Shown one piece after another: positions 3,296 to 37,107 of a DNA stretch of 37,107 bases. The stretch is from an uncultured Ignavibacteria bacterium (lineage in GTDB: Bacteria; Bacteroidota; Ignavibacteria; Kapaibacteriales; UBA2268). Numbering within the stretch: the stretch's first letter is position 1; each line of letters opens with the position of its first letter. A model generated the notes under the pieces. It saw only the letters and a program-made list of their open reading frames with translations, was not told the DNA's origin and ran no database searches. The stretch covers positions 1 through 37,107 of the forward strand of contig CAIOZA010000080.1 of NCBI GenBank assembly GCA_903862655.1. The letters run 5' to 3'. The translations under genes were made by a program, and so were the position numbers.

Positions 3296-4723
3296 CTCTT
3301 CAACTCTTTCCACTTCGTCTTTTTCTTCCTAGTGGTAACAACCCTCTACTTCCTCCTGCCGCACAGGTATAGGTGGATGCTATTATTGGGCAGCAGTTGT
3401 TATTTCTACATGGCATTTATCCCGGTATATATACTTATACTCGGGTTTACAATTGTTGTTGACTACTTCGCGGGTATCCTGCTCGAAACCGCCGAAGGCA
3501 AAAAACGGAAATACTGGCTAATCGCTAGTCTTATAGCTAATATTGGAGTACTGGCAGTATTCAAGTATTACAATTTCCTCAACGATAATTTATCAGGCCT
3601 GCTAAATTCAATAGGCTATCAGAACCATATCCCCCACCTGGGTATATTATTGCCAATAGGCTTGTCATTTCATACCTTCCAGGCCATGAGTTATACCATC
3701 GAGGTGTACCGGGGTCATCAAAAGGCCGAGCGTAATTTTGGCATATATTCCTTATATGTAATGTTTTACCCACAGTTAGTCGCAGGCCCAATAGAACGTC
3801 CGCAAAACCTCATTCACCAGTTCTACGAAAAGCATTATTTCGAATACGAGCGGGTTGTCGAAGGGCTAAAGCTTATGCTTTGGGGCCTCTTTATGAAACT
3901 TGTCATTGCCGACCGTCTTGCAATTTATGTAAATGCCGTTTACAACAATGCCGACCAGCACAGTGGTAAAACACTCGCATTGGCTACAGTCTTTTTCGCA
4001 TTTCAAATCTATTGCGACTTTGCCGGTTACTCAAATATTGCCATTGGAGCAGCAAAGGTTATGGGGTTTAAGTTAATGACCAACTTTAACCGCCCCTATT
4101 TCTCCCGCTCCATCTCCGAATTCTGGAAACGCTGGCACATTTCTTTATCAACCTGGTTTAAGGATTACTTGTATATTTCACTAGGTGGCAACCGTGTTTC
4201 TATTCCACGCTGGTATATAAATTTGTTCCTGGTATTTACAATTAGCGGGCTTTGGCATGGCGCTAATTGGACCTATATAATTTGGGGAGCCATTAATGGG
4301 TTTTATCTGGTTTTTGCTATTGTTACCGAAAAATGGCGCAAAAAATTCAATCATCTCATATTATTGGATCGCTTACCTAAACTACATAATGCGCTACAAA
4401 TACTCGTTACATTTGTTTTGGCGTGCTTTGCTTGGGTATTCTTTAGGGCAAATACCACAGTTGATGCATTTTTTATTGCAAAACAAATTGCACTTTTTAG
4501 TGGCTCACTTTACATAGGTGATTTACAACAATTTACTTATTGCATATTAAGCATTTTATTTTTACTTTTTATTGAAAGAAACTGGGAACATCAACACCAG
4601 CGGATACTCCCGTTTCAATCAAACCATTGGTTTAAAAACCAGTTGGCTTATGCAATGCTAATTTTTCTTATCCTTGCTGTAGGTGTCTTTGATGGAGGCC
4701 AGTTTATCTATTTTCAATTTTAA
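3293..4723 (+). CDS. MBOAT-family O-acyltransferase (AlgI/DltB-like)
   Basis: MBOAT proteins of the AlgI type pass acyl groups across the inner membrane so that a periplasmic partner can O-acylate a polysaccharide. The 476-residue protein has the full family length with about ten or more membrane segments. It carries the family landmarks: PIGLSFHTFQ (about 121-130), AGPIERP (164-170), YCDFAGYSNIAIG (240-252), FWKRWHISLSTWFKDYLY (277-294; His282) and SGLWHGANW (318-326) with the expected catalytic His322, the same number as in Pseudomonas AlgI. The next gene, 11 nt downstream, is an SGNH-like protein, the usual partner. Likely role: O-acetylation of the exopolysaccharide or capsule made by the rest of the locus. 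Confidence 0.93.
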   Translation: MLFNSFHFVFFFLVVTTLYFLLPHRYRWMLLLGSSCYFYMAFIPVYILILGFTIVVDYFAGILLETAEGKKRKYWLIASLIANIGVLAVFKYYNFLNDNLSGLLNSIGYQNHIPHLGILLPIGLSFHTFQAMSYTIEVYRGHQKAERNFGIYSLYVMFYPQLVAGPIERPQNLIHQFYEKHYFEYERVVEGLKLMLWGLFMKLVIADRLAIYVNAVYNNADQHSGKTLALATVFFAFQIYCDFAGYSNIAIGAAKVMGFKLMTNFNRPYFSRSISEFWKRWHISLSTWFKDYLYISLGGNRVSIPRWYINLFLVFTISGLWHGANWTYIIWGAINGFYLVFAIVTEKWRKKFNHLILLDRLPKLHNALQILVTFVLACFAWVFFRANTTVDAFFIAKQIALFSGSLYIGDLQQFTYCILSILFLLFIERNWEHQHQRILPFQSNHWFKNQLAYAMLIFLILAVGVFDGGQFIYFQF

Positions 4724-31311: not shown

Positions 31312-32343
31312 ATGGATAAACTACTATATTTTGGCTATGTAATCCTGACCTCCTTCAAACATAGAACAAAATTAATTTCCTTTAGCTTGTTTTTTAGTCG
31401 AAAATATGACCGCAGCAGGTTGTATTTTTTATTTGTGCCTTATCTTTACTATTTTAAATTTAATATGCATCCTTTAGACTATTTCTACTTTAATGTGTTC
31501 AAGAATGAAAAATTCAATCCTAATGATTACGCTAATACTATGTTCATGTATCGTTTTCATAAAAAATTAAATGATAAAAAGTACACAAAATATTTTTTCA
31601 ACAAAATGCTTTTCCATCAGAAATTTAAGGAATACATGGGGCATGGGTATATCAATTTAAAAAAGACAAACATTAATGAATTGAGAAAATGGATAATTGA
31701 TAAAAAACCAGATTCGTTGATAATAAAAAAAATAAACAGTGTTGGTGGTTTTGGCGTCAAGAGAGTTCGTATAAAGCTAAAGGATAACGACGTTTTCATA
31801 GACAATCAAACAATTAATGATAAGTTTCAATTTTTGCAAAAATTTGATCTCATTGAAGAGTTTGTTGTGCAGCACGAACTGATAAACAAAATTAATCCTA
31901 GCTGTTTGAATACAGTTCGTGTTGCGACCGTATTAGATAAAGATAATACTGTGAATATCTTAGGTGCAGTAATTAGGTTCGGTGTTAACAACGACGTTGA
32001 TAATTTTCATTCTGGTGGTATTGCCGTTAATATTAATGTTTTGAACGGTTGTCTTGAAGGAGATGGATTTAGGCTTGCACCATCAGAACCTGAGTTTTAC
32101 CCATTTCATCCAACAACAAATATTAAATTTGACGGCTATCAACTTCCTCATTGGCCGATATTAATTAATACTATAAAAAAAGCCTGTTATGTAATTCCAC
32201 AAGCACGTACAATTGGATGGGACATTGCAATTACTCCTAATGGAGTTAGCCTTATCGAAGGCAATCATGATTGGGATAAAATAATTATAGAAAAAGCTCT
32301 GAAACGGGGTATTAGAAAAGAACTCGAAAAGTATATACAATAA
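31312..32343 (+). CDS. Sugar-transfer associated ATP-grasp protein
   Basis: The 343-residue protein resembles the ATP-grasp family found with sugar transferases (PF14397). It has a helical basic N-terminus, then IIKKINSVGGFGVKRVRI (about 136-153) as a nucleotide-binding strand and loop, FDLIEEFVVQHELINKINP (about 178-196), and SCLNTVRVATVLDK (about 197-210). The later blocks are FHSGGIAVNINVLNGCL (about 235-251), ARTIGWDIAITPNGVSLIEG (about 301-320) and NHDWD at the end. This pattern, with NTVR and EGN, identifies the family. It is 5 nt from the GNAT gene, so both are likely co-translated. A ligase that adds an amino-acid-like group is possible; nothing fixes the substrate. Confidence 0.85.
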   Translation: MDKLLYFGYVILTSFKHRTKLISFSLFFSRKYDRSRLYFLFVPYLYYFKFNMHPLDYFYFNVFKNEKFNPNDYANTMFMYRFHKKLNDKKYTKYFFNKMLFHQKFKEYMGHGYINLKKTNINELRKWIIDKKPDSLIIKKINSVGGFGVKRVRIKLKDNDVFIDNQTINDKFQFLQKFDLIEEFVVQHELINKINPSCLNTVRVATVLDKDNTVNILGAVIRFGVNNDVDNFHSGGIAVNINVLNGCLEGDGFRLAPSEPEFYPFHPTTNIKFDGYQLPHWPILINTIKKACYVIPQARTIGWDIAITPNGVSLIEGNHDWDKIIIEKALKRGIRKELEKYIQ

Positions 32344-32348
32344 ACAAT

Positions 32349-32945
32349 ATGATAGTGCGCATCTTACTATACATTAAACATCACCTTTCTTTTTTTTGGC
32401 AGCTAATTGAATTGATTAATGCATATCTCTTCAACCTTCTCTATGGCCGCAGATTTAAAGAAGTTATTCCTATAGTAATAAATGAGTCTAGCTTATCAGG
32501 TTTTTCCTTCCGGCAATTGGCTGTACAAGAAATACCTGCTTTACATGCATTAATATACAAACAAGTTTCAGGCCGTCTTGATTACTTTAAGCCACATGGC
32601 TTCGATATTAAGTCATTACAGAAGACTTTCAAGAACCCTTCCTTTTTAATGATGGGAGTATTTGATGGCCCACATTTGGTGGGTTATTTTTTTTTACGCT
32701 GTTTTTGGAATCGCAAATGCTTTGTCGGCCGCCTTATAGACCAGCCTTATGAGGGCAAGGGAATAGGCAGGGTAATGAATAGTATAATGTATAACATCGG
32801 TTGGCGATCCGGTTTCCGTGTATTGTCAACCATCTCTAAAAACAACCATCTTGTAATGAAGTCGCATGCCAATAACCCACTAATGGTCATCTTGAAGGAA
32901 TTGGATAATGATTTTTTGTTTGTGGAATTTGTGGAGAAGAAATAA
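32349..32945 (+). CDS. GNAT-fold N-acetyltransferase-like protein
   Basis: The 198-residue protein has a hydrophobic, basic N-terminus (LYIKHHLSFFWQLIELI) that could bind membrane. A GNAT-like domain starts at about residue 50 (FSFRQLAVQEIPALHALI). The acetyl-CoA loop is recognisable as RLIDQPYEGKGIGRVMNSI (about 127-145), matching the Q/R-x-x-G-x-G/A motif. The end is LLPLMV-free and ordinary: NNHLVMKSHANNPLMVILKE. It is the last gene of the polysaccharide locus, 5 nt after the ATP-grasp gene. Likely an N-acyltransferase for an amino sugar or amino acid substituent. Confidence 0.78.
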   Translation: MIVRILLYIKHHLSFFWQLIELINAYLFNLLYGRRFKEVIPIVINESSLSGFSFRQLAVQEIPALHALIYKQVSGRLDYFKPHGFDIKSLQKTFKNPSFLMMGVFDGPHLVGYFFLRCFWNRKCFVGRLIDQPYEGKGIGRVMNSIMYNIGWRSGFRVLSTISKNNHLVMKSHANNPLMVILKELDNDFLFVEFVEKK

Positions 32946-33365
32946 AGAATAATGGTTCCAAAACAACGCTACACGAAAATCGCATCATCATTCAATTAGG
33001 ACCCAAATACAATGACGAAGAATATATGAAAAACAAAAGTAAAATGAAACAGCATAAAAAGCTTTCAATATTCAACCGCAATTGGATGCCGGCATTTCAA
33101 CCGGCATTCGTGCTTTCAAACAACAAAGGTTTCTGCCAAAAAACCGAAAAAATCACATAGCTCAATCAAACAAACACTGTCAAACTTTCCCTTTACACAA
33201 AAAAAACAGTTTCAACATACCACCCTATCCAACCCCTGCATAGCTAAAACCAATAGCTAAAACTAATAATAAAACTTAAAAAAACCATAAAATACGGTAT
33301 TTATGGTCCAAATTTCAACCATACATCCCCACCCCCTCCCCACTCACTTCTCCCAACTCAAAACG
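32946..33365 (+). other. Gap after the locus with a doubtful 44-codon ORF
   Basis: Between the GNAT stop and the first heptamer array no known gene is seen. An ORF at 33026-33160 (ATG, 44 codons, starting MKNKSKMKQHKKLSIF) is open in its frame back into the GNAT gene. It may be a gene remnant. A small inverted repeat (ATGCCGG at 33086, CCGGCAT at 33101) sits inside it. From about 33300 the base composition turns C/A-rich and G-poor ahead of the array. Confidence 0.35.
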
Positions 33366-33638
33366 CACCAATCACCAGTCACTAATCACTAATCACCAAT
33401 CACCAGCCACCAATCACCAGTCACCAATCACCAATCACCAATCACCAATCACCAATCACCAATCACCAATCACCACCCACCAATCACCACCCACCAATCA
33501 CCAATCACCAACCACCAATCACCAGTCACCAATCACCAGTCACCAATCACCAGTCACCAATCACCAGTCACCAATCACCAGTCACCAATCACTAATCACC
33601 AATCACCAGTCACCAATCACTAATCACCAGTCACCAAT
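33366..33638 (+). repeat. Heptamer array A: 39 in-register units
   Basis: Thirty-nine consecutive 7-base units, mostly CACCAAT and CACCAGT with some CACTAAT and CACCACC, run from 33366 to 33638 without an insertion or deletion. Much of it alternates CACCAAT/CACCAGT as a 14-bp higher-order unit. It ends 14 nt before the ATG of the first four-helix-bundle gene, joined by CACCCCCTCAAAAG. Spacers are absent, so it is not a CRISPR array. Confidence 0.95.
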
Positions 33639-33652
33639 CACCCCCTCAAAAG

Positions 33653-34012
33653 ATGGTCAAAACACATAAAGACCTGGAAGTTTGGAAACTATCCATCGAC
33701 TTTGTCACTGAAATCTACCGAATTACAGAAGGATTTCCAAAGTCAGAACTATATGGACTAACATCTCAAATACGTAGGGCTGCAATTTCCATACCATCTA
33801 ACATAGCTGAAGGTGCAACGAGAAACTACAAGACTGAGTTTAAGCAATTTTTATTCATTTCTCTTTCAAGTGCTGCCGAAGTAGAAACCCAACTAATAAT
33901 CTCAGGTAAACTAAACTATCTCGAACCAAAAAAACTAGAGGACTTATTACAAATTCTAAATTCAATCTCACGCATGCTTCAGGGCCTAATAAAATCAATC
34001 AGTACCAAGTAA
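33653..34012 (+). CDS. Four-helix-bundle protein (S23/IVP/Avd-like), copy 1
   Basis: The 119-residue protein belongs to the four-helix-bundle family named after the protein encoded in 23S rRNA intervening sequences and related to Avd of diversity-generating retroelements. Hallmarks are THKDLEVWKLSIDFVTEIY (4-22), FPKSELYGLTSQIRRAAISI (28-47), SNIAEGATRN (49-58), FKQFLFISLSSAAEVETQL (63-81) and the final helix. It is highly basic and all-helical. There is no rRNA or reverse transcriptase here, so its host context is neither of the two known ones. It lies between two heptamer arrays and 6 residues of 119 differ from copy 2. Confidence 0.92.
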   Translation: MVKTHKDLEVWKLSIDFVTEIYRITEGFPKSELYGLTSQIRRAAISIPSNIAEGATRNYKTEFKQFLFISLSSAAEVETQLIISGKLNYLEPKKLEDLLQILNSISRMLQGLIKSISTK

Positions 34013-34015
34013 AGC

Positions 34016-34463
34016 CACCAATCACCAGTCATCAATCACTTATCAACAGCCACCAATCACTAATCACCAATCACTAATCACCAGTCACCAATCACCAATC
34101 ACCAATCACTAATCACTAATCACCAATCACCAGTCACCAATCACCAATCACTAATCACCAGTCACCACCCACCAGTCACCAGTCACGAGTCACAAATCAC
34201 CAGTCACCACCCACCAATCACCACCCACCAACCACCAATCACCAGTAACTAATCAACAGTCACCAATCACCAGTCACCAATCACCAATCACTAATCACCA
34301 GTCACCAGTCACCAGTCACCAGTCACCAATCACCAGTCACCAGTCACCACTCACCAGTCACCACTCACCAATCACCACTCACCACCCACCAATCACCAGT
34401 CACCACTCACCAATCACCAGTCACCACCCACCAATCACCAATCACCAATCACCAGTCACTAAT
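34016..34463 (+). repeat. Heptamer array B: 64 in-register units
   Basis: From 3 nt after the stop of copy 1, exactly 64 heptamers can be read to 34463 without any indel (CACCAAT, CACCAGT, CACTAAT, CACCACC, CACCACT and single-base variants). CACCCCTCAAAAA then leads into the ATG of copy 2, nearly the same junction as in array A. The 463-bp gap between the two genes contains nothing else. Confidence 0.95.
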
Positions 34464-34476
34464 CACCCCTCAAAAA

Positions 34477-34836
34477 ATGGTTAAAACACATAAAGACCTG
34501 GATGTTTGGAAACAATCCATTGACTTTGTCACTGAAATCTACCAAATTACAGACGGATTTCCCAAGTCAGAACTATATGGACTAACATCTCAAATACGTA
34601 GGGCAGCAATTTCTATACCATCCAACATAGCTGAAGGTGCAACGAGAAACCACAAAACTGAGTTTAAGCAATTTTTATTTATTTCTCTTTCAAGTGCTGC
34701 CGAGTTAGAAACCCAACTAATAATCTCAGGTAAACTAAACTATCTTGAACCAAAAAAACTAGAGGACTTATTACAAATTCTAAATTCAATCTCACGCATG
34801 CTTCAGGGCCTAATAAAATCAATCAGTACCAAGTAA
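34477..34836 (+). CDS. Four-helix-bundle protein (S23/IVP/Avd-like), copy 2
   Basis: A second 119-residue member, 113 of 119 residues identical to copy 1 (differences at 9, 13, 23, 26, 59 and 77). The conserved motifs SNIAEGATRN and FKQFLFISLSSAAE are intact, and no frameshift or stop is present, so both copies appear to be kept. The two genes start 824 nt apart and share the leader junction CTCAAAA. The high identity shows a recent duplication or gene conversion. The family's function is not settled; Avd-like members form pentamers that bind nucleic acid. Confidence 0.92.
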   Translation: MVKTHKDLDVWKQSIDFVTEIYQITDGFPKSELYGLTSQIRRAAISIPSNIAEGATRNHKTEFKQFLFISLSSAAELETQLIISGKLNYLEPKKLEDLLQILNSISRMLQGLIKSISTK

Positions 34837-34853
34837 AATCAATAACTACCAGT

Positions 34854-35301
34854 CACCAGTCACCAGTCACCAATCACCAATCACCACTCACCAATCACCA
34901 ACCACCAACCACCAGTCACCAATCACCACTCACCAATCACCCGTCACTAATCACCAGTCACCAATCACCAATCACCAGCCACCAATCACCAATCACCAAT
35001 CACTAATCACCAATCAGCAGTCACCAATCACCAATCACCAATCACCAATCACCAATAACCAGTCACCAATCACTAATCACCAGTCACCAATCACCAACCA
35101 CCAGTCACCAATCACCAACCACCAGTCACCAATCACCAATCACCAGTCACCAATCACCAATCACCAGTCACCATTCACCAGTCACCAGTCACAAATCACC
35201 AACCACCAGTCACCAATAACCAGTCACCAATCACCAGTCACCAATCACCAGTCACCAGTCACCAATCACCACTCACCAATCACCACTCACCAATCACCAC
35301 T
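34854..35301 (+). repeat. Heptamer array C: 64 in-register units
   Basis: Sixty-four heptamers (448 nt, the same length as array B) are read from 34854 to 35301 without an indel; a degenerate unit TACCAGT precedes them at 34847. CACCAAT and CACCAGT dominate, with CACCAAC and CACCACT more frequent than in array A. It fills nearly all of the gap between copy 2 and the DUF6922 gene. Confidence 0.95.
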
Positions 35302-35357
35302 CAAATAACTTCAAGGCAAATTGGCTTTTTTTGTACCTTTACATAAAAACCATACAA

Positions 35358-35657
35358 ATGGATTCTTCACTTGCTCAATTAAATAAGGCATATTTCTGGG
35401 ATGTTGATTTCAATAAACTTGATAAGTCTAAATCCATGAGACTGATAATTGAAAGGGTAATAAATCTTGGCAATTTAAGTGATCTAAAGCTTATCAGAAA
35501 AATATACACCGAAGAAGAAATCAGAAAAACTATATGCAATCTTAATTATCTGGACAGAAAAACCCTCCATTTTGCTTCTTTGTTTTTTAACATACCAAAA
35601 ACCAGTTTCAAATGCTACACAAAGAAACAATCAGTCCCCATACCTTGGAATTATTAA
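35358..35657 (+). CDS. DUF6922-like antitoxin candidate
   Basis: From ATG 35358 the protein has 99 residues with the pattern YFWDVDFNKLDKSKSMRLI then IERVINLGNLSDLKLI, a YTEEEIRKTI helix and LDRKTLHFASLFFNIP, as in small proteins found beside AbiEii-type nucleotidyltransferases in Bacteroidota. An in-frame TTG at 35331 gives a longer version; ATG is preferred because the sequence before it (TACCTTTAC in an AT-rich run) looks like a promoter or leader. It overlaps the next gene by 46 nt, which supports a coupled toxin-antitoxin pair. The family number is from memory and should be taken as probable. Confidence 0.75.
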   Translation: MDSSLAQLNKAYFWDVDFNKLDKSKSMRLIIERVINLGNLSDLKLIRKIYTEEEIRKTICNLNYLDRKTLHFASLFFNIPKTSFKCYTKKQSVPIPWNY

Positions 35658-36241
35658 TCAGGATACAACAAAAAAAGTACCTGAACGGATTCCACCTTGT
35701 TGGAGGCACTGCATTGGCTTTACATTTTGGTCATCGTCTATCTGTTGACTTGGATTTCTTTTCCGATTTTAGTTTCGATACAGCATATTTACTCGAAAAC
35801 TTATCATCCGATTTTGACTTTAAATTGTATTTCTCAGCAAACAACACCTTAAAAGGAAGTATCGAGGGTGTTAAGATTGATATACTGGCACACAGATACC
35901 CTTATGTATGTTCACCTTTGGTAATTGAAAATATATCCATAGTATCTATTGAGGATATAATTGCGATGAAATTAAATGCAATTTCAATAAGTGGCCAACG
36001 AATTAAGGATTTCATTGACATTTATTATCTCCTCAAATCTTATACAATTGATGATATGCTTCAGTTTTATAAAACGAAATATGCAACATTCAACGAAGTT
36101 AATGTTCTGAAAAGCCTAACCTGGTTCGAAGATATTGACCATACTGACATGCCAGTACTACTTGAAAATCCAAAATTAAAATGGGCAGAAGTATCGAGAA
36201 AAATCAGGCAGCATACTCAAAAGTATCTGCGAAAAACCTAA
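35612..36241 (+). CDS. AbiEii/AbiGii-type nucleotidyltransferase toxin
   Basis: The 209-residue protein carries the MNT-like core FHLVGGTALALHFGHRLSVD followed by LDFF (27-50): the GG motif (Gly31-Gly32) and the metal-binding DxD (Asp46, Asp48). It then has a central IEGVKIDILAHRYPYV and SIEDIIAMKLNAIS block, and a C-terminal KDFIDIYYLLKSY helix with the conserved DxxDxYxL pattern. AbiEii-type toxins add nucleotides to tRNA or other targets and are used in phage defence and plasmid stability. The antitoxin-like gene starts upstream and overlaps by 46 nt. It reads as complete and probably active. Confidence 0.88.
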   Translation: MLHKETISPHTLELLIRIQQKKYLNGFHLVGGTALALHFGHRLSVDLDFFSDFSFDTAYLLENLSSDFDFKLYFSANNTLKGSIEGVKIDILAHRYPYVCSPLVIENISIVSIEDIIAMKLNAISISGQRIKDFIDIYYLLKSYTIDDMLQFYKTKYATFNEVNVLKSLTWFEDIDHTDMPVLLENPKLKWAEVSRKIRQHTQKYLRKT

Positions 36242-36285
36242 GATAGTCTAAGTGGCAATATTTAAGAGTTGAACCACACCAATAA

Positions 36286-36404
36286 CTATTCACTCTTCTC
36301 TATTCACTGTTCACTGTTCACTCTTCACTCTTAACTACTCACCAGTCACCAATCACCAATCACTAATCACCAATCACCAATCACTAATCACCAAACACCA
36401 ATGA
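36286..36404 (+). repeat. Heptamer array D: 17 units changing sequence class in register
   Basis: The units run CTATTCA, CTCTTCT, CTATTCA, CTGTTCA, CTGTTCA, CTCTTCA, CTCTTAA, CTACTCA and then, without losing phase, CCAGTCA, CCAATCA, CTAATCA and similar. The last unit is CCAATGA, whose ATG at 36401 is the start of the next gene. The array shows that the CTNTTCA and CCARTCA classes are one family. Confidence 0.9.
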
Positions 36405-36730
36405 CCTCAGGCAGAAACTCCAGCGGAAAATTCACCAAAGGTCACCCCGGCTTCAAACCCAAAGGCGCAGTCTCCCGCAAAAAACAAAAGCAGGATCAAC
36501 TCCTTAATCAGGTGTTTGGATATTTCGAGAATAATATAGAAGAAACCCTCAAAGCCCTCAAGCCAAACCAATTGATGAAGTTCTACATCAACCTCAACCA
36601 ACTTGTAACACCAAAGCTCAAAAGGATCCCCTACGTTCCAAAACCACCAATAGAAACTGAAGAAGAATCAGAAACCGAAGATGTAGAGGAAACAGACCAA
36701 ATGGAAACATCAAAAGAAAAAGACGAATAA
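36401..36730 (+). CDS. Small hypothetical protein, basic N-terminus and acidic tail
   Basis: The 109-residue protein begins TSGRNSSGKFTKGHPGFKPK followed by GAVSRKK, a Gly/Lys-rich motif seen at the start of some phage- or plasmid-borne proteins (DUF5681-like, terminase-small-subunit-like), then a helical middle QDQLLNQVFGYFENNIEETL and an acidic tail (about residues 85-109, many Glu, Thr and Ser). The ATG is supplied by the end of array D. No partner or operon is visible. Real gene likely; function unknown. Confidence 0.7.
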   Translation: MTSGRNSSGKFTKGHPGFKPKGAVSRKKQKQDQLLNQVFGYFENNIEETLKALKPNQLMKFYINLNQLVTPKLKRIPYVPKPPIETEEESETEDVEETDQMETSKEKDE

Positions 36731-36745
36731 GAATCATTCGAGTTC

Positions 36746-36857
36746 AACTCATAACTCACTTCTCCATACTCCCAACTCCTTACCCACCACTCCTTACCCC
36801 CTACTCCATATTCACTATTCACTATTCACTATTCACAATTCACTTCTCACTGCTCAT
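36746..36857 (+). repeat. Heptamer array E: 16 in-register units
   Basis: Sixteen heptamers are read from 36746 to 36857: AACTCAT, AACTCAC, TTCTCCA, TACTCCC, AACTCCT, TACCCAC, CACTCCT, TACCCCC, TACTCCA, four TATTCAC, AATTCAC, TTCTCAC and TGCTCAT. No indel. The class is closest to the first half of array D. Unlike the others it lies before a promoter (36877), so it is not in the leader of the gene at 36926. Confidence 0.85.
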
Positions 36858-36876
36858 AAAAATTACATCTTACTTT

Positions 36877-36908
36877 TTTGCATCATACTATATTGTAAGT
36901 TATCTTTG
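36877..36908 (+). promoter_or_regulatory. Bacteroidota-type promoter for the gene at 36926
   Basis: TTTG at 36877-36880, a 20-nt spacer and TATCTTTG at 36901-36908 match the Bacteroidota consensus TTTG/TAnnTTTG with its normal spacing. The predicted start of transcription would be about 10-15 nt before the ATG at 36926. It is the best promoter in the window. Confidence 0.7.
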
Positions 36909-36925
36909 TATCAAATAAATCAGTC

Positions 36926-37107
36926 ATGAACCATAAAACTCCTTTTGTCTTCGGTCGCATCACATCCTTCTATGTTGTAAAACAAGCGGATGGAGATTTA
37001 TTTTTTTTATCTTTGTATGGTAAATCCGAAGAGGAAGTGAGCTCTGCTGGAGAGCAACTCACCAGCAATAAGGTTTATGACGGTGAAAACACCAGAAAAG
37101 GCCTTTC
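36926..37107 (+). CDS. Unidentified protein, N-terminal part only
   Basis: An open frame begins at ATG 36926, 17 nt after a good promoter -7 box, and runs off the end of the window. The 60 residues visible begin NHKTPFVFGRITSFYVVKQ and continue with DGDLFFLSLYGKSEEEVSSA. The start PFVFGRI recalls the beginning of Bacteroidota archaeal-type AAA ATPases, but no Walker motif is in view and the following residues do not fit, so I give no function. Confidence 0.55.
   Translation, partial: MNHKTPFVFGRITSFYVVKQADGDLFFLSLYGKSEEEVSSAGEQLTSNKVYDGENTRKGL

Follow-up and report, generated by a model that had tools for sequence, protein, structure and literature searches.

A duplicated S23 gene among heptamer arrays in an Ignavibacteria genome: a candidate derived copy of a single-gene mobile element

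Organization of the S23 genes and heptamer arrays

The window (the whole stretch of DNA that was analyzed, 37,107 nt) carries near its right end two S23 genes interspersed with long arrays of tandem heptamers; all of the features of this region lie on the plus strand. Copy 1 (positions 33653–34012) and copy 2 (34477–34836) each encode a four-helix-bundle protein of 119 aa and are identical at 344 of 360 nt, which bears out the original prediction of duplicated genes of this type between the arrays. Both proteins match the family profiles PF05635 (136 bits for copy 1, 136–137 bits for the pair; cut-off 33.8) and TIGR02436 (132 bits; cut-off 24) over their full length. The 16 base differences between the copies comprise 10 synonymous and 6 non-synonymous changes (dN/dS = 0.17; Fisher p 0.0006), and the S23 protein has therefore been under purifying selection since the duplication.

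Array A (33366–33645) consists of 40 heptamers, partly alternating between CACCAAT and CACCAGT. Array B (34016–34470; 65 heptamers) starts 3 nt past the stop codon of copy 1, and array C (34847–35301; 65 heptamers) has the same orientation as A and B. Arrays A and B stop at most 8 nt before the S23 start codons. Two shorter repeats, absent from the original prediction, flank genes downstream of array C: array D (36339–36406; about nine heptamers of the CACCAAT word, preceded from position 36285 by TTCACTN heptamers) and a patch of TATTCAC heptamers (36762–36851) that follows a 109-aa ORF lacking a Pfam match. Between arrays C and D lies a toxin-antitoxin type gene pair (DUF6922 and AbiEii; 35331–36241), which is regarded as a neighbour, with no claim that it belongs to the element.

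The strict 7-nt phase described in the original prediction is preserved throughout arrays A, B and C, with no phase break and 0% indels in the corresponding Tandem Repeats Finder calls (33366–33642, 34016–34467 and 34848–35303); the unit counts, previously 39, 64 and 64, each rise by one when the arrays are cut in register and edge units are counted. The CAC triplet occupies phase 0 and appears in phase 3 only in the units CACCACC and CACCACT. Base changes relative to CACCAAT number 23 of 280 in A, 56 of 455 in B and 42 of 455 in C, and only 1, 6 and 5 of them, respectively, fall outside the mostly variable positions 4 (C/T), 6 (A/G/C) and 7 (T/C). Adjacent units are identical at a frequency of 0.19–0.22 across the three arrays, and units two apart at 0.58 (A), 0.22 (B) and 0.30 (C). 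The longest runs of units common to different arrays comprise 4–5 units, no more than in shuffled arrays, and the origin of the arrays by copying of a unit order was accordingly rejected. All of the window arrays point the same way, so that C-rich repeats flank the genes to the left and right, the inverted G-rich arm described below being absent, and array A as RNA is predicted to be unstructured (z +0.87).

Several known systems were considered for this locus. The Avd protein of diversity-generating retroelements resembles PF05635 (excerpts of PMC10053308), and Avd/bAvd proteins belong to the same four-helix-bundle superfamily as S23. However, the window protein scored below the cut-offs of the Avd and bAvd profiles (34.4 of 80 and 35 of 40 bits), and no reverse transcriptase was detected on the window contig (C80), the two RVT_1 matches of the genome being located on contigs C77 and C96. 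A retroelement of this type was therefore rejected. In REP/BIME systems, short intergenic repeats of the hairpin type spread together with the RAYT transposase gene to which they are linked. Such a system was also rejected, since C80 contains no Y1 transposase gene (PF01797; 14 matches elsewhere in the genome); moreover, the repeats here are tandem heptamers and S23 is not a transposase. Rfam searches detected no rRNA in window positions 32000–37107, nor in the 20 loci scanned among the best 80 of 587 S23 loci (see below); the locus, outside rRNA genes and devoid of complementary termini, thus differs from a 23S rRNA intervening sequence. Phage carriage was rejected as well, because the window S23 protein had no match in the phage collection. 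Solved relatives of S23 (2gsc and 2rld) were each deposited with five chains, and this fold is not known to have a catalytic activity.

Heptamer arrays and inverted arms at other S23 loci

The genome that contains the window has seven S23 matches, including the two described above. Period-7 runs are present near L004 (ATTACGA) and near the L005/L006 pair (TTCGAAY and CCTGTCC type); L003 has flanks that by eye resemble inverted heptamers, without a called array, and no period-7 run was found near L007. Among 60 genomes (this one included), S23 matches were identified in 31, and 14 of the 30 loci examined in this set have a period-7 run within 1.5 kb on either side.

A broader sample was formed by the best 80 of 587 S23 loci obtained in a profile scan of genome contigs. 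This sample is not random and is biased toward close S23 relatives; it spans Bacteroidota, Planctomycetota, Clostridia, Desulfuromonadales, other Proteobacteria, Chloroflexota, Patescibacteria, Acidobacteria and one archaeal bin, from genomes that are mostly metagenome-assembled or lack a species name. A period-7 array lies within 300 nt of the gene at 23 of the best 80 of 587 loci, compared with 33 of 660 control ORFs (ORFs of 270 nt or more, called mechanically in the same loci; p 6e-10) and 9 of 164 short ORFs (p 1e-6), in agreement with the enrichment of heptamer arrays near S23 genes that had been anticipated. In the same best 80 of 587, the 77.5 kb closest to the genes (up to 500 nt away) contained 36 arrays, and the 939 kb more than 1.5 kb away contained 40. 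Autocorrelation analysis of the S23 flanks gave peaks at lag 7 (z 6.9), lag 14 (z 5.7) and lag 21 (z 7.5), whereas control ORFs showed chiefly the coding multiples of three (lag-7 excess 4 per thousand versus 56 for S23). At a low threshold, a flank array was detected at 76 of 118 S23 loci, with a period of 7 in 63 cases, 8 in 9 and 9 in 2. On a poorly resolved S23 tree, used to ask whether the period follows descent, ten period-8/9 loci would require seven changes. Strict register, emphasized in the original prediction, is not general and was dropped as a hallmark: the S23 flanks examined contained 37 period-7 arrays measuring 49 nt or more, scored with a lower indel cost than the window arrays, and 16 of these had 0% indels while 21 had some.

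The repeated word differs among the S23 loci of one genome, and both arms of a given locus carry the same word. Similarity of words correlates with similarity of the S23 proteins within genomes (r 0.59 in G014 and r 0.53 in G035; 11 loci each) and only weakly across the named loci of the best 80 of 587 (r 0.10, p 0.025).

Inverted arms were sought by aligning the 220 nt upstream of each gene with the reverse complement of the 220 nt downstream, with flanks taken from different loci as the baseline. Full flanks were available for 73 of the 80 named loci (best 80 of 587), for which the 99th percentile of mismatched pairs corresponds to a score of 16. This value was reached at 46 of the 73 loci, and a score of at least 20 at 30 of them (0.4% of mismatched pairs). 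Among the control ORFs, 22 of 660 scored at least 16 and 6 of 660 at least 20 (30/73 versus 6/660, p 2e-27). Arms in direct orientation were found at 9–11 of the 73 loci, depending on the cut-off; the expectation that arrays follow the orientation of the gene on both sides does not hold as a rule, and the direct arrangement is a minority form (L069, score 85; L303, score 69; L083, L088, L104 and L137). The archaeal locus L146 has arms with a score of 18. Neither arms nor arrays were detected at 22 of the 73 named loci from the best 80 of 587, which counts against the reading of S23 loci as mobile elements. A set of relatives (40 stretches, reduced to 38 by leaving out L162 and L186; 37 with full flanks) included 22 of 37 loci with arms scoring at least 20, compared with 5% of mismatched pairs, and 10 of 37 above the 99th percentile (28.9); the mismatched scores are high in this set because some words recur between loci. 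Of 17 further S23 loci, 9 scored at least 20 (mismatched 3.5%).

On the coding strand, a G-rich upstream and a C-rich downstream arm were observed at 65 of 115 S23 loci and the reverse arrangement at 1 of 115; the same skew test applied to control ORFs gave 159 and 127 of 660.

The window S23 protein also matches 42 plasmid records, of which 13, from cyanobacterial plasmids, were read (L297 and L298 represent one site in two species). A period-7 array is present within 300 nt at 11 of these 13 loci at the low threshold and at 7 of 13 at the main threshold, and arms scoring at least 20 at 6 of 13, mismatched pairs also being high in this set (11% at least 16). At L300, L303, L308 and L296, the cyanobacterial S23 genes are each inserted between two other genes: cas6 and cas4 in two species, cas10/cmr2 and a Cmr3-family gene in a third, and genes for ribonucleotide reductase subunits in a fourth. 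The L296 element, from Nostoc edaphicum, has strong arms. If such S23 genes are mobile elements, their occurrence inside operons would be a warning against reading them as pathway partners.

A second cargo, occupied and empty sites, and gene-less repeats

Two of the best-scoring control ORFs encode GxxExxY proteins (TIGR04256), which we take to be PD-(D/E)XK-like. The 42 GxxExxY loci analyzed in the relatives (27 of 30 loci and 15 of 20 stretches, with duplicates and fragments left out, drawn from L187–L216 and L255–L271) have repeats with a period of 9 nt, with words such as ACACGGATT and ACACAGAGTT. Inverted arms scoring at least 20 are present at 26 of the 42 (mismatched 2.1%), and direct arms at this score at 8 of the first 27. 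The lag-9 signal is pronounced (z 7.3). Lag 9 is a multiple of three, as coding sequence would give, yet lag 6 shows no excess and lags 12 and 15 only a slight one, and the coding-type background at lag 9 is lower: per thousand, the lag-9 excess is 54 for GxxExxY, 13 for ParE and 11 for control ORFs (flanks of 160 and 200 nt). In five genomes containing both cargos, 38 S23 loci show lag 7 (z 7.4) with no lag-9 excess, and 14 GxxExxY loci show lag 9 (z 3.6) with no lag-7 excess. A period set by host replication would be expected to be the same for both cargos, and slippage of the host polymerase was therefore rejected as the sole cause of the 7-nt period. ParE toxin loci from the relatives' set (26 of 30; 260-nt flanks, compared with 220 nt in the S23 sets) had arms scoring at least 20 in 0 of 26 cases and at least 16 in 3 of 26, and no period-7 array. 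The arms of GxxExxY loci have the same strong strand polarity as those of S23 loci, G-rich upstream and C-rich downstream on the coding strand (15 to 2 of 42). Heptamer or octamer arrays were also seen next to HigB and HTH genes, a DUF1828 gene and a ParE gene (L277:2407–3066, L280:160–943 and L008); toxin-antitoxin genes may use the same sites as the arrays.

Comparison of related loci suggests that the gene and its arms move as a unit, which favours the repeat-and-protein element of the original prediction. In genome G035, the genes at L179 and L180 are identical at 353 of 381 positions and lie at different sites in unrelated sequence. Their homology extends from 53 nt before the gene to 60 nt after it, with nothing beyond, and the long array of L179 is mostly outside this common core. 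These limits suggest that a core of about 0.5 kb is what moves and that the arrays may grow later. The L170 element of G035 fills the space from the stop codon of the preceding gene to the leader of the following one; the equivalent site of G020, a sister species, lacks the gene along with its arms and has 66 nt of unrelated sequence instead of a bare junction. At three further sites, the flanks are 116–385 nt apart in G020 versus about 750 nt in G035, with no S23 match at these G020 positions and no clean alignment of the edges. That clean edges were obtained at one of the four sites tried between G020 and G035, that the one clean site (L170) has other sequence in G020 in place of a bare junction, that no target-site duplication could be defined, that the element encodes no transposase and its S23 fold is not known to be catalytic, that mismatched arm pairs also score high in the relatives' set and that period-7 arrays occur near 33 of 660 other ORFs all count against the mobile element reading.

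An S23 element occupies the same place between tRNA-Ser and tRNA-Leu genes in three genomes, each time with a different word. Own arms scored 46, 28 and 70 and crossed arms 22–36; the own pair was clearly ahead in L159 and L166, whereas in L163 it was not. At the orthologous loci L176 and L184, own arms scored 29 and 19, and crossed arms 12 and 10.

The S23 protein closest to that of the window among the best 80 of 587 (72% identity, same word type) is encoded at L067, where two S23 genes with heptamer flanks are located between capsule genes. At this locus, heptamer stretches (L067:2411–2480, 4115–4172 and 4334–4444) also run in frame through parts of the genes for capsule synthesis, where three units (21 nt) encode the peptide HQSPITN. 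The UDP-GlcNAc 2-epimerase gene contains two stretches (16 and about 35 residues) that are missing from solved homologues. The Cap5F-like gene has a stretch in which both arm types can be recognized by eye, with a gap of just 5 residues relative to solved homologues, and its status as an insertion is less clear. At other loci, five inverted heptamer pairs were found less than 80 nt apart.

Five units of the CACCAAT word were matched in 11 of 395 genomes of the phylum sample (the present genome included). The reverse test, starting from the repeat, largely went against the original prediction: among the matches listed, comprising 15 distinct CACCAAT-word arrays outside the genome of origin (7 of them with less than 500 nt on one side), an S23 gene was found within 500 nt of 1 of 15 and was missing at the other 14. 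Gene-less heptamer forms of the kind described above fit this scarcity.

Interpretation of the locus and its alternatives

We consider it somewhat more probable than its negation (probability about 0.55) that the window contains a derived, tandemly duplicated copy of a single-gene mobile element of about 0.5 kb, whose arms can grow into long arrays. The window has period-7 arrays adjoining both S23 genes, well within 300 nt. Since it has no inverted G-rich/C-rich arms and array A is unstructured, its membership of this group rests on the gene family, the arrays and the relatives. In its usual form, such an element would consist of one S23 gene (four-helix-bundle, Avd-like) between two reverse-complementary arms of about 50 nt, often tandem heptamers, G-rich upstream and C-rich downstream on the coding strand. 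It would insert between genes, also within operons and right after a stop codon, and its arms would then lengthen unit by unit, presumably by slippage, into long arrays. In the simplest history, the window copy would have lost its inverted arm, its C-rich arms would have grown, and the gene-plus-array unit would have been duplicated, probably when one array recombined unequally with another. No trace of a common origin is retained in the order of the units; therefore, either the arrays turned over after the duplication, or the duplication came about in a different way. Because the period is specific to the cargo and S23 resembles Avd, the S23 protein is a plausible reader of the arms: it may recognize them as single strands or DNA hairpins, contacting each heptamer once, and may recruit a host enzyme that moves the element.

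A more general proposal is offered as tentative, and we would sooner bet against it than for it. It posits a widespread bacterial class of single-gene mobile elements of about 0.5 kb (with the one armed archaeal S23 locus, L146), in which a non-enzymatic binding protein would determine the fixed unit length of the tandem repeats in its own DNA arms (7 nt for S23, 9 nt for GxxExxY) and would also read these repeats. The protein would coat the arms when single-stranded and pass them on to the replication machinery or a transposase of the host. Hairpins that lack a gene and heptamer arrays that stand alone, the classic cyanobacterial arrays perhaps among them, would be non-autonomous offspring that can lie in frame inside genes.

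The arms might act in RNA instead. The rRNA intervening sequences of Coxiella and Leptospira, which have been called selfish, encode the S23 protein; their S23 ORF lies between complementary terminal arms that form a stem cut by RNase III (excerpts of PMC4990558). By analogy, arms paired in the transcript would be cut and the S23 mRNA would leave the operon RNA, making the insertion harmless, while heptamers would keep the stem pairable in any register. The elements in the transcribed tRNA-Ser/tRNA-Leu interval and the long stem that folds round the gene at L166 (z −3.94, 20 shuffles) are in line with this explanation. Yet an arm maintained by RNA pairing should tolerate G-U over A-C, and G-U mismatches are not in excess: 146 versus 154 in the arms of 81 S23 elements (sign test p 0.34), 1120 versus 1077 under neutral scoring of both kinds (p 0.21), and 56 versus 50 in GxxExxY arms. 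Therefore, the arms stay complementary through pairing as DNA or because one arm is copied from the other; these are favoured over RNA pairing, which, despite the good fold of L166, was rejected as the main force on the arms. Moreover, the window arrays are unable to pair with one another, and overall we regard the RNA explanation as unlikely. A neutral origin seems to us a shade less probable again. Under it, slippage of the polymerase at hot spots between genes would give rise to the arrays, and recombination between arrays would bring small accessory genes, S23 included, to these places, the protein having nothing to do with the repeat. Heptamer repeats are common in bacteria and such slippage has been proposed as their origin (excerpts of PMC4679880), most of the listed CACCAAT-word arrays lack S23, and toxin-antitoxin genes also adjoin arrays (the pair at 35331–36241 in the window; L277). 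Against this stand the dependence of the period on the cargo within the same genomes, arms that are inverted and matched locus by locus, the end of the L179/L180 homology within the arms, and the finding that adjacent units in the window are no more alike than distant ones.

Finally, the heptamers could be operators or leader-RNA sites for the S23 protein, through which it would control its own or neighbouring genes, with array length tuning the binding. Purifying selection on the S23 gene, arrays ending so close to the start codons and the correlation of word with protein similarity would all suit such a role. However, the word differs in both arms between the orthologous loci L176 and L184, and at the L170 site gene and arms are absent together, so that a regulatory array appears improbable, and the least probable of the explanations considered.

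Returning to the mobile element reading, its relation to known repeats can be outlined as follows. The S23 gene between complementary arms is shared with the 23S rRNA intervening sequences, but the elements described here are intergenic or lie in a tRNA operon, have locus-specific heptamer arms and reach arrays of up to 65 units. The cyanobacterial STRR sequences are tandem heptamers, and, like the TAACTGA repeats of Beggiatoaceae, resemble the present arrays in being intergenic; S23 elements differ from both in their locus-specific words and in the paired inverted arms round a gene. The TAACTGA heptamers are tandem and intergenic, with relatives whose intergenic regions lack the repeats, and heptamer length differences between two Cyanothece strains are mostly in 7-nt steps (excerpts of PMC4679880). 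A text search of PMC4679880 found neither “four helix” nor “S23”, and none of the matches listed from the open-licence literature was a paper joining S23 genes with heptamer arrays. Rickettsia palindromic elements are hairpin elements located in frame within genes. The in-frame repeat stretches in the L067 capsule genes are similar in this respect, but S23 elements have tandem-repeat arms and gene-bearing versions. If correct, the proposed elements would provide a single origin for puzzling intergenic heptamer arrays in bacteria, and a setting for the common small S23 family, which has no known function.

Repeats of other types are present near the left end of the window. Imperfect 8-nt repeat arrays (CAAATTAT and ATTAACGC; positions 432–548 and 2359–2575) bracket a 243-aa ORF and a HicA-like toxin gene (1470–1733). 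Positions 2092–2352 consist of a 21-nt tandem repeat in 12 copies, the minus strand of which is open as a 109-aa ORF encoding a 7-residue repeat of the MPIYVFS type.
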